DNA from: Candidatus Methylomirabilota bacterium
Lineage (GTDB): Bacteria > Methylomirabilota > Methylomirabilia > Methylomirabilales > Methylomirabilaceae
Assembly (NCBI GenBank): GCA_003104975.1
Contig: PQAM01000015.1
Location: 1 to 64,000 of the forward strand
DNA length: 64,000 bases
Direction of reading: 5' to 3'
Shown one piece after another: positions 4,482 through 57,897 of this stretch. The position numbers were made by a program, and so were the translations under genes. Each line of letters opens with the position of its first letter. The stretch's first letter is position 1. Under the pieces are notes generated by a model. The model was given only the letters and a program-made list of their open reading frames with translations, was not told where the DNA came from and did no database searches.

Positions 4482-7127
4482 GTGAACCGGCACGTCAATG
4501 CTATTGCCGGTCGGTTGAGCTTGCGGGCGCCTCAGCGCCGGTCGCTGGAGATCCTCGATCGGGTGACGGAGATCGTGCCGCCCCAGAAAGGCGTTGATCT
4601 TAATGCGGCGCTCGCCGCGATCCGGAGCGAGTGTCCGACCGTCACCGATTTTGAGCGTGAGTTTCCCTCGCTCTGCTTCGCCCTTGCCACCGGGGTCGGC
4701 AAGACCCGGCTGATGGGCGCCTTTATCAGCTACCTGCATCTCGCCCATGGCGTCAGACACTTTTTCGTCCTGGCGCCGAACCTCACGATCTACAACAAAC
4801 TCATCACCGACTTTACGCCCAACACGCCCAAGTATGTCTTCAAGGGAATCGCAGAGTTTACCGCCGAGCCGCCCGAGATCATCACCGGCGACAACTACGA
4901 GTCGGGCGTGGGCGTGCGGCGTTCGTTGCTGCCGGGGTTCGAGCGCGAGATCCACGTCAACATCTTCAACATCTCCAAGATCAACTCCGAGGTCCGAGGC
5001 GGCAAGTCGCCACGCATCAAGCGACTGTCCGAGTATATCGGCGAGAGCTACTTTGACTACCTCGCCGGTCTCGACGACCTGGTGCTGCTGATGGACGAAT
5101 CTCACCGCTACCGAGCGTCGGCCGGTGTGCGGGCGATCAATGAGCTGAAGCCGGTGCTGGGGCTGGAACTGACGGCGACCCCCTTTGTAGAGAACAGCCG
5201 CGGCGCTGTCGCCTTCAAAAACGTCATCTACGACTACCCGCTGGCCAAGGCGATGGCGGACGGATTTGTGAAAGAGCCGGCCGTCGTGACGCAGAAGAAT
5301 TTCGATCCCAGCCAATTTACTCAGGCCCAGCTCGAGGAGATCAAGCTCCAAGACGGGATACGGCTACACGAGAACACGAAGGTCGAGCTGGACACCTACG
5401 CCCGTCAGACCGGACAGCGGGTCGTCAAACCGTTCGTATTGATCATCGCCCGCGATACTACGCACGCCGGGCAGCTTATGCAGATCATTCGGTCGGAGCA
5501 GTTCTTTGAGGGGCGCTACGCAGACAAGGTGATTCAGGTGGATTCCAGCAGGACCGGCGCGGAAGAGGACGAGATGGTGCAGCGCCTCCTGGCCGTGGAA
5601 AGCCCGGAGGAGCCGACCGAAATCGTCATCCACGTCAACATGCTCAAGGAAGGCTGGGACGTGACCAACCTCTACACCATCGTCCCTCTTCGGGCCGCCA
5701 ACGCCCGGACCCTGATCGAGCAGTCGATCGGTCGAGGGCTCCGCCTTCCGTACGGCACACGTACGGGGGTGAGTGTTGTGGACCGGCTGAGCATCGTCGC
5801 TCACGATCGGTTTCAGGAGATTATCGATGAGGCCAATCGGCCCGACTCGATCATCCGCCTCGCGCAGGTCGTGCTCGATCCGAACACAGATCTCCAGAAG
5901 ACGACAACGATTGTGATCCAGTCCAATCTTGCGGAGCAGATCGATACCATGGCTGACGAATCGGAACGTCGGATTGCGCAAGCGACCCGCGAGGTAATCC
6001 GACGATACGAGCACCTGCCCGCGTCGGCCGATCTGCTGAAGCCGGAGATTCGGGAGCAGATCGTCCAGGAGGTCACCGAATACGTCCGGTCGGCGCAGCA
6101 GGCGTTGCCGGGTGTGACGGAGCAGCCGGATATTGCGGCGGCGGTGGCGAAGACGACCGAACTCGTGGTCCGGCAGACTATTGATATTCCGCGAATTCTT
6201 GTGGTCCCGAAGGACGAGGTGACCGGCTTTCACCCCTTCACGCTGGATTGCTCCAGCATCCGTTACCAGCCGGTCGAACGGGATCTGCTGATCCAGCATC
6301 TGCGTACGCATGAGCAGGATACGCTCGGCGTGAGCGAGGGCCGGCACCCGGAACAGCGGCTGGAGGATTACCTGGTACGCGGGCTGATCGATTTCGACGA
6401 CATCGCGTATGACGAGCACGCCGACCTGCTCTACGACCTGGCCGGGCAGGTGGTCAGACATCTGCGTTCGTATCTTTCGGAGGAGGATGCGCGGAATGTG
6501 CTGATCTATCGCCAGAAAGAGCTCGCAGCGTCCGTATACGCGCAAATGCAGGCGCACCAGTGGGAACAAGCGGCAGGATATGAGGTGAGGGTGAACAAGG
6601 GATTTATGGAACTCAAGAACAGTGCGTGTACGGCGAATGCCGACGAGCCCCCTCATGACTTCCGGCAGACCATCGAAGACAAGAGCCGAATCTCACGGAT
6701 GGTATTCGGGGGCTTCACGCGATGCCTGTACGCCCTTCAGAAGTTCCAGTCCGATACCGAACGGAGGCTCGCGGTGATCCTCGACCGCGAAACGCACAAG
6801 TGGTTCAAGCCGGTACAGGGGCAGTTCCCAATTACCTACAAGGTGGATGTGGAATACCACGACTATGTCCCGGACTTTGTGGCCGAAACGGCAGCGGCGA
6901 TCTACATGCTGGAGGCCAAGGCGCGAAACGAGATGACCGATGCCGACGTCCTGGCGAAGAAAGATGCAGCGATCCTCTGGTGCAGCCACGCCACGACCCA
7001 CGCTCTCAACAACGGCGGTAAGCCGTGGGCCTATCTCCTCATCCCGCACGACGCGATCACCGAGAACATGACCCTTGGCGGATTCGTCAGTCAGTTCGCC
7101 ACGGCGCCAGATTTGGATACCGGCTGA
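4482..7127 (+). CDS. res: Type III restriction enzyme, helicase-nuclease subunit (Res)
   Basis: An 881-residue superfamily 2 helicase/nuclease. It has Walker A ATGVGKTR near residue 70, a DESH-type motif II (LLMDESHRYRA) near residue 205, SAT-like TATPF, and the motif VI region QSIGRGLRLPYG. The C-terminal domain carries the PD-(D/E)xK nuclease signature: VPDFVAE, then LEAKAR about 13 residues later. Start is GTG at 4482, giving the usual MNRHVNAIAGRLSLR beginning. Together with Mod it would translocate on and cut DNA between inversely oriented sites. The gene is full-length with no visible lesion. Confidence 0.93.
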   Translation: MNRHVNAIAGRLSLRAPQRRSLEILDRVTEIVPPQKGVDLNAALAAIRSECPTVTDFEREFPSLCFALATGVGKTRLMGAFISYLHLAHGVRHFFVLAPNLTIYNKLITDFTPNTPKYVFKGIAEFTAEPPEIITGDNYESGVGVRRSLLPGFEREIHVNIFNISKINSEVRGGKSPRIKRLSEYIGESYFDYLAGLDDLVLLMDESHRYRASAGVRAINELKPVLGLELTATPFVENSRGAVAFKNVIYDYPLAKAMADGFVKEPAVVTQKNFDPSQFTQAQLEEIKLQDGIRLHENTKVELDTYARQTGQRVVKPFVLIIARDTTHAGQLMQIIRSEQFFEGRYADKVIQVDSSRTGAEEDEMVQRLLAVESPEEPTEIVIHVNMLKEGWDVTNLYTIVPLRAANARTLIEQSIGRGLRLPYGTRTGVSVVDRLSIVAHDRFQEIIDEANRPDSIIRLAQVVLDPNTDLQKTTTIVIQSNLAEQIDTMADESERRIAQATREVIRRYEHLPASADLLKPEIREQIVQEVTEYVRSAQQALPGVTEQPDIAAAVAKTTELVVRQTIDIPRILVVPKDEVTGFHPFTLDCSSIRYQPVERDLLIQHLRTHEQDTLGVSEGRHPEQRLEDYLVRGLIDFDDIAYDEHADLLYDLAGQVVRHLRSYLSEEDARNVLIYRQKELAASVYAQMQAHQWEQAAGYEVRVNKGFMELKNSACTANADEPPHDFRQTIEDKSRISRMVFGGFTRCLYALQKFQSDTERRLAVILDRETHKWFKPVQGQFPITYKVDVEYHDYVPDFVAETAAAIYMLEAKARNEMTDADVLAKKDAAILWCSHATTHALNNGGKPWAYLLIPHDAITENMTLGGFVSQFATAPDLDTG

Positions 7128-55984: not shown

Positions 55985-56003
55985 TTGCCTAAGGAGTGCA
56001 ACC

Positions 56004-57053
56004 ATGAGTGGCCAACAGATTCGACTGACGTCGTTGTCGCACGGGGCCGGCTGAGCCTGTAAAATCAGCCCTGCTGATCTGGCTCAGGTGCTGGGCCAGC
56101 TTCCACAATTTGACGACTCGCGCATTCTTGTGGGGGCCGAGACCTCCGACGATGCCGCCGTGTACCAACTCGACGGCGGACAGGCCATCGTCCAGACCGT
56201 CGACTATATCACTCCCGTCGTCGACGACCCCTACAGTTGCGGTCAGATCGCCGCCGCCAACTCGCTGAGCGACATCTATGCGATGGGTGCGACCCCGCTC
56301 TTCGCCCTGAACATTGTCGGGTTTCCCGTGGGATCGCTATCCTTGGATATCCTGGCGGAGATCCTTCGCGGCGGCGCCGATAAGGTTCGGGAGGCCGGGA
56401 TCCCGATCATCGGAGGCCACAGCATTGACGATCCGGAGCCCAAATACGGCCTCGTTGTCACCGGACTGATCCATCCTGCAAAAATCTATAAGAACTCGAC
56501 TGCCCTGATCGGCGATGATCTGGTGTTGACCAAACCTCTCGGCATCGGGATTATCACAACGGCGATTAAGCGCGGCAAGGCCGCACCATCAACGATCGAT
56601 GCGGCCGTCGCATTGATGGCAACGCTGAATAAAGACGCATCGGAGGCCATGGTCGCGGTAGGCGCCCACGCCTGTACGGATGTGACCGGTTTCGGACTGC
56701 TCGGCCACCTGCATGAGATGACGACAGGGAGCAAGATGGGCGCGCGGGTGTGGCTTTCGAAGATCCCCGTCCTGCCGGAGGCCTGGGATCTGGTCAGACA
56801 AGGGGTCTGCCCTGGTGGAACAAAACGCAATTATGACTCGCTGCAATCCGCCGTTACATGGGATCCAGGGATTGATGAAGAGGCCCGACTGATGCTCTGC
56901 GACGCCCAGACCTCCGGCGGCCTCCTGATCGCTGTCCCGAAGGACAGGACGGCGGCCCTTGTGCGGCGCCTGAATGAGCGCAAGACACCGGTCGCGGCCC
57001 TCATCGGCGAAATCATCGAGGACCAAGAGGGCCGGATCCGCGTGGAGCCGTAG
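56004..57053 (+). CDS. selD: Selenide, water dikinase; a selenoprotein (Sec at residue 17)
   Basis: A 349-residue SelD making selenophosphate from selenide and ATP. ATG at 56004 (after AAGGAGTGCAACC) gives MSGQQIRLTSLSHGAG, then TGA at 56052-56054, then ACKISPADLAQVLG. The TGA stands exactly where the catalytic Cys/Sec of the family lies (GAG-U-xCK), so it is read as selenocysteine. Further motifs: the ATP-site lysine CK, DDAAVYQLDG, VDYITPVVDDPY and CTDVTGFGLLGH. A caller unaware of Sec would start at 56088 and lose the active site. SelA, SelB and tRNA-Sec must be elsewhere in the genome. Confidence 0.93.
56052..56086 (+). promoter_or_regulatory. Bacterial SECIS-type hairpin in selD
   Basis: Starting with the UGA itself: TGAGCC (56052-56057) pairs with GGCTCA (56081-56086), and ATCAGC (56064-56069) with GCTGAT (56073-56078) around a 3-base loop. 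A two-part stem directly at the UGA is the bacterial SECIS layout, bound by SelB in known systems. Confidence 0.8.
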
Positions 57054-57346: not shown

Positions 57347-57408
57347 TTCGTCCACCCAATACCCATACGCTAGTAGCCGACTCATGGTCATAATAGCCCC
57401 CCGACCCT

Positions 57409-57460
57409 GTCATTGCGAGCGACCGAAGGGAGTGCGGCAATCTCATTGTCTTTGGTTAGA
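57409..57460. repeat. Half copy of palindromic repeat family B
   Basis: GTCATTGCGAGCGACCGAAG…GCGGCAATCTCATTGTCTTT matches the left arm of the elements at 29395 and 37458. The right arm is missing. Confidence 0.6.
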
Positions 57461-57465
57461 AAGTC

Positions 57466-57565
57466 CCTCCTCACCCCCGCCCTCTCCTCCAAAGGAGGCG
57501 AGGGGAACCAAAAAAGACCTCCTCTCCCCCAATGGGGGGGGGAGGATAAAGGTGAGGGGGATTTT
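57466..57565. repeat. G/C-tract palindromic repeat
   Basis: CCCTCCTCACCCCCGCCCTC…GGAGGATAAAGGTGAGGGGG, with an inner CTCCTCCAAAGGAGGCGAG and CCTCTCCCCC/GGGGGGGGAGG hairpins. It resembles the CTCACCCCC…GGTGAGGGGG elements common in bacterial intergenic DNA and is a third repeat type in this gap. Confidence 0.6.
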
Positions 57566-57684
57566 TCGGAGCAACGATCCCATCCGGCGTCTGGCTTTCT
57601 ACCCCGGACCTTCATCCTCACGGACAGACTACAGGTGCAAGCGGTAATAGTGTCCTGTTCTAAAATTCGTCGCATATTTTTCGA

Positions 57685-57730
57685 CGTCATTCCGGCCAAG
57701 CCCGCAAAGCGGGCGCGAGCCGGCATCCAG
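57685..57730. repeat. Partial copy of palindromic repeat family A
   Basis: CGTCATTCCGGCCAAGCCCG, AAAGCGGGCGCGAGCCGGCA, TCCAG: hairpin arms GCCCGC/GCGGGC. Together with the two repeats above it makes up most of the 57347-57897 gap, where no gene was found. Confidence 0.6.
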
Positions 57731-57897
57731 AAAATAAGCCGACAAGACCCGCCGTATCTGTAAGAGGGCGTAGAGTCCACAAATCGCTTGCTAACGGCTG
57801 GATCCGATTCTACAATTCGCCATCACTATAGAAGTCTTTGGCGCGAATAGGCTGACCAATCTACGTAATAGTTGAGCCTCATCAAAGGAGAAATAGC

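Follow-up and report, generated by a model that had tools for sequence, protein, structure and literature searches.

The selD gene (selenide water dikinase, also known as selenophosphate synthetase) at positions 56004–57053 of the forward strand of the window, the 64,000-nucleotide stretch of Candidatus Methylomirabilota DNA that was analysed, contains an in-frame UGA codon. The locus raises the question of whether SelD in this bacterium is itself a selenoprotein and, if so, which RNA element directs the decoding of the UGA. The evidence described below supports the proposal of the earlier note on this DNA that SelD is a selenoprotein, with the catalytic-site UGA kept in relatives and the full selenocysteine (Sec) machinery encoded in the genome. 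The gene product is almost certainly an active selenophosphate synthetase, with its UGA decoded via a hairpin at 56079–56099.

The SelD frame extends from ATG 56004, located 7 nt downstream of a putative ribosome-binding site, AAGGAG (55991–55996, forward strand), that was read from the sequence, to the stop codon TAG at 57051–57053, and comprises 349 amino acids including Sec17. The single in-frame stop is the TGA at 56052–56054 (codon 17), such that the coding frame is open both before and after the UGA, as had been claimed. With the UGA read as U, the N-terminus is MSGQQIRLTSLSHGAGU17ACK20ISPADLAQ. The product gives a full-length match to the SelD profile (NCBIfam TIGR00476; E = 1.7e-125, 418 bits against a cut-off of 125, residues 7–315) and aligns end to end with Escherichia coli SelD (PDB 3u0o; residues 1–348, E = 2.9e-87). 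In this alignment, U17 falls on the catalytic Cys17 and K20 falls on K20, a residue that is invariant in the SelD alignment. The two proteins thus align over their full length and share Lys20 and the catalytic position 17; they differ in that the catalytic residue is Cys from a sense codon in E. coli and is encoded by UGA in the window SelD. By the profile match and the presence of both catalytic Cys/Sec17 and Lys20, the product of 56004–57053 is a predicted member of the SelD family, and the view that the UGA replaces the active-site Cys holds, all the more as this alignment column contains only U and C. Mechanical open reading frame (ORF) calling yields a 321-aa ORF from GTG 56088 to 57053, without the catalytic loop and residue, exactly the truncation that the earlier note expected from automated callers. 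This GTG (56088–56090) is a spurious start that coincides with the apical loop of the hairpin at 56079–56099. The annotation is corrected accordingly, given that standard callers would truncate selD and lose the catalytic residue.

The UGA is conserved among the relatives of this bacterium. The search covered 60 genomes, comprising the window's own together with relatives at the level of genus, order and class. In 58 of them (counted from the search rows), the SelD match contains one TGA and no more; of the two exceptions, one has a SelD fragment that lacks its N-terminal part, and the other is a 63%-complete genome in which no SelD match exceeds the cut-off. In direct readings of 30 of these SelD loci, U is present at the site in 29, and the remaining locus, with Cys, is an additional SelD copy that lies in a long open frame of genome G028. 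The 80 nearest SelD sequences from named genomes, which represent many phyla and among which the closest to the window gene is from Candidatus Methylomirabilota, in line with Methylomirabilis as the probable genus of the host, have UGA (54) or Cys (26) at this column and nothing else. Altogether, the alignment-based tally of this column across 110 sequences is 83 U and 27 C, with no other residue. Thus, the in-frame UGA of selD occupies a conserved Sec/Cys site and is kept in relatives. In a quick tree of the 110 SelD sequences, used only for the grouping of the window SelD and the clustering of Sec/Cys labels, the window gene belongs to a Methylomirabilota clade of Sec forms, and the labels cluster, with only four label changes needed.

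Two further forms of SelD were observed among these sequences. The Cys-type SelD of G028 (locus L027, contig C155), a genome that also encodes a Sec-type SelD, lies in a 773-aa open frame and resembles the known fused SelD class. A second type of Sec-SelD carries the motif CAGUASK or CAGUAAK, not HGAGUACK, and is represented by three loci of class relatives (L044, L046 and L047) as well as named Chloroflexi, Nitrospirae and other loci; the three class relatives have hairpins at other positions (17 nt) or none.

The genome that holds selD (G000; 19 contigs, 3.0 Mb, 99.99% complete) also encodes SelB (380 bits, over the cut-off, with the C-terminal winged-helix domains SelB-wing_2 and wing_3), SelA (591 bits) and a canonical tRNA-Sec (65 bits) with the anticodon UCA (TCA), encoded CCA and G73. 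These genes reside on contigs C8, C6 and C19, and the window contig is C15. Thus, selA, selB, selC and selD, the gene set by which the Sec trait is recognized, are present in one genome. Family searches reading through stops reveal four more genes with an in-frame UGA in Sec-type motifs, each with a hairpin whose 3-nt loop begins with G and lies about 20 nt downstream of the UGA. One is FwdB, with U124 in the motif SSVUHGP (TIGR03129, 533 bits over a cut-off of 328); the others are two thioredoxin-like genes, with WUGYC (L142, 1408–2031, reverse strand) and SKUPHC (L143, 1420–1917, forward strand), and an AhpD-like gene with CHYU (L138, 1249–1791, reverse strand). The earlier note had inferred a Sec-decoding organism, had suggested a search for selA, selB, selC and other UGA genes, and had regarded the absence of selB or selC from a complete genome as fatal to its claim; the search recovered all of these genes, and the organism is confirmed as one with the Sec-decoding apparatus. 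FlpD and SelW-like proteins were searched for in this genome and not found. FdhA was considered as the driver of Sec use here and rejected because its high-scoring match contains no internal stop.

Two overlapping hairpins can form downstream of the Sec codon, and they are mutually exclusive, sharing positions 56079–56086. The published model of the bacterial SECIS element (bSECIS) specifies a loop of 3–9 nt with a G in the first two positions, a stem of 4–16 bp, a spacing of 16–37 nt and an energy of at most −7.5 kcal/mol (PMC13188914). The hairpin at 56079–56099 on the forward strand (CUGGCUCAG-GUG-CUGGGCCAG) has a 9-bp stem, a 3-nt loop GUG, a UGA-to-loop distance of 33 nt and an energy of −13.3 kcal/mol, and so conforms to all four published rules; its stem, GU-start loop, spacing and energy resemble the consensus, and nothing in it goes beyond the published ranges (PMC13188914). 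The other hairpin, the one described in the earlier note, starts at the UGA itself (56052–56086, forward strand; TGAGCC...ATCAGC CCT GCTGAT...GGCTCA, with the apical part AUCAGC-CCU-GCUGAU at 56064–56078). The minimum-energy fold of 56046–56100 is the hairpin at 56079–56099 and not the one starting at the UGA; for the 60 nt from the UGA, the reverse is the case. An Rfam scan of the SelD region gave no match.

Comparative evidence points to the hairpin at 56079–56099. The best bSECIS-like hairpin, compared with synonymous recodings, has a mean z of −1.86 in Sec-SelD (n = 83) and of 0.03 in Cys-SelD (n = 27; Mann-Whitney p = 4e-11 for the difference in hairpin strength), figures that are inflated by shared ancestry, which is not fully removed. 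The best hairpin is positioned at exactly 33 nt in 45 of the 83 Sec-SelD, and the structure of 56079–56099, when no more than one disrupted pair is allowed, is retained in 43 of the 80 distinct Sec rows and in none of the 27 Cys rows. Its pairing amounts to 75.6%, against 50.4% or less for slid partners. The pair between columns 33 and 43 takes the forms C-G, G-C and U-A, with 25, 15 and 14 rows, respectively. In 51 of 63 rows, compared with 20.4 expected in shuffles (p <= 5e-5), the base at column 33, a synonymous third codon position, can pair with the base that opens the codon at column 43; when the rows are restricted to named genomes of the wider collection, the count is 29 of 40, compared with 11.3 expected. 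Shared ancestry likewise inflates these counts. Chance is nevertheless an unlikely origin of this signal because the Cys forms contrast with the Sec forms and three different base pairs occur. Thus, a hairpin at 33 nt recurs, with compensatory changes, in Sec-SelD from many phyla and is absent from the 27 Cys-SelD. It is not universal, given that other positions are used in about half of the Sec-SelD.

Could the functional SECIS be the hairpin that starts at the UGA? This hairpin is foldable, with an energy of −14.8 kcal/mol and z = −2.7, such that only 4 of 200 shuffles and 2% of synonymous recodings fold as well, and, within the order, both partners have changed in some of its pairs. However, it violates two of the four bSECIS rules because its apical loop, CCU, lacks a G in the first two positions and is located 15 nt after the UGA (PMC13188914), and the UGA itself would be base-paired. 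Within the order, only 85% of the cells pair; overall, at most one pair is broken in 7 of 80 Sec rows, compared with the 43 of 80 for 56079–56099, and RNAalifold on 38 columns did not recover this structure. A functional role of this hairpin as the SECIS is therefore unlikely: of the original observation, the hairpin that begins at the UGA stands as a possible fold but is not the conserved one. The best-supported predicted SECIS of selD is the hairpin at 56079–56099.

By analogy with the known families, from which the actual Sec insertion, SelB binding and enzyme activity are deduced, SelB carrying Sec-tRNA-Sec (anticodon UCA) would bind the mRNA hairpin 56079–56099 as the ribosome reaches the UGA at 56052–56054, resulting in insertion of Sec17, with the apical loop of the hairpin lying 33 nt downstream. 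Sec17 and Lys20 would then act in the production of selenophosphate from selenide and ATP, and selenophosphate would be used by SelA to make more Sec-tRNA. Because selenophosphate feeds Sec-tRNA synthesis, SelD would require its own product for its full synthesis, and SelD of this NC10-type lineage appears to depend on its own product.

Alternative readings of the UGA and of the gene can be assessed against the same evidence. A sequencing or assembly error converting TGC or TGT to TGA, which the earlier note set as a possible refutation, would make SelD an ordinary Cys enzyme, in keeping with the 26 of 80 named relatives that have Cys at the site. However, the single TGA appears independently in SelD of the 58 related genomes, the hairpin downstream of the site is a feature specific to the Sec forms and the genome carries the full Sec machinery, so this reading is so improbable that it can be practically discarded; the conserved TGA already refutes it. 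The ORF starting at 56088 that mechanical calling yields could be taken to mean that selD is a pseudogene, or that the true start is GTG 56088 and the protein lacks the catalytic residue. This is extremely improbable, considering that the residues RLTSLSHGAG upstream of the UGA are conserved in relatives at the protein level, the frame is otherwise intact, selA, selB and selC require a SelD, and the TIGR00476 scan of the same genome shows no other match over the cut-off among the matches listed.

A different possibility involves a second tRNA-Sec-like gene with a UCA anticodon (genome G000, C3:50105–50202, or L148 4606–4703; reverse strand; 54 bits with the tRNA-Sec model), which might insert Cys at the selD UGA. 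This gene is present here and in three relatives (G014 C18:9326–9423, G008 C49:3626–3723 and G001 C9:2638–2735), shows a compensatory change in the acceptor stem, and combines a 7/5 fold with U73 as in selC* tRNA-Cys; tRNA-Cys(UCA) of tRNA-Sec-like form is known elsewhere (PMC7609411). Against this, the genome has a canonical tRNA-Sec with G73 as well as SelA and SelB, the SelD UGA is kept in most relatives although no match to the second tRNA is seen in them, and the copies in the relatives do not retain the encoded CCA. Reading of the selD UGA as Cys by this tRNA is accordingly very improbable. It also seems quite improbable that the UGA has two readers, the Sec-tRNA and the second UCA/U73 tRNA, with SelD and other proteins receiving Sec or Cys depending on the selenium supply. 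The reading that accommodates the data best is Sec at position 17 of SelD.

In its general features, this finding agrees with what is already known. That SelD can be a selenoprotein is textbook knowledge, with the Sec form accounting for about 19% of prokaryotic SelD (PMC4561486), and selenoproteins of Methylomirabilota have already been reported: according to a review, 63 selenoprotein genes are predicted in one Methylomirabilota MAG. A search for literature naming Methylomirabilis or Rokubacteria with selenoproteins found nothing specific. The window SelD resembles the known Sec-SelD/SPS2 (e.g., SelD of Pasteurellales) in family, single Sec position, SECIS within the coding region and the Sec trait, and differs only in the host, a Methylomirabilis-type NC10 bacterium, with the HGAGUACK motif and the 33-nt SECIS spacing. 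The selD SECIS signature in the NC10-type lineage, a hairpin of 9 bp with the loop G-U-N at a distance of 33 nt from the UGA, could help gene callers, being found across many phyla and not in Cys forms. Biologically, selD is ordinary here; the second UCA tRNA and the Sec/Cys pair of FwdB are more interesting.

FwdB, of the formylmethanofuran dehydrogenase subunit B family, is encoded in two copies in genome G000, both on the reverse strand. The Sec copy, with the UGA at position 124 (UHGP), is located at C6:145604–146920 (L147 1105–2421), near a gene resembling that of a tungstate-binding protein, and the Cys copy (CHAP) is at C3:46675–47994 (L205). The UGA copy is represented in six genomes of the genus, and Sec and Cys copies occur together in several. 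The second UCA tRNA-like gene has a long variable arm in addition to its 7/5 fold and U73 in all four genomes of the genus, among which the acceptor-stem compensation is observed, but it is not called as tRNA-Sec by ARAGORN. It resembles the selC* tRNA-Cys(UCA) class (PMC7609411) only in the anticodon, discriminator and long variable arm, and is possibly tRNA-Cys(UCA)-like. In G000, this gene is upstream of genes resembling fae and an MtdB-type dehydrogenase, names assigned only from reading the translations, and adjoins a shortened egtB-like frame (L148, reverse strand, about 4745–5261). In this frame, an N-terminal part is joined to a C-terminal YNGKFMANQMVLRGGSC part, with TAG where Trp is usual, and it looks like a decayed gene. 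Finally, the intergenic region at 57400–57780 of the window, downstream of a HicB-like ORF, contains short inverted low-complexity segments (CCCTCTCCTCCAAAGGAGGCGAGGGG and similar).
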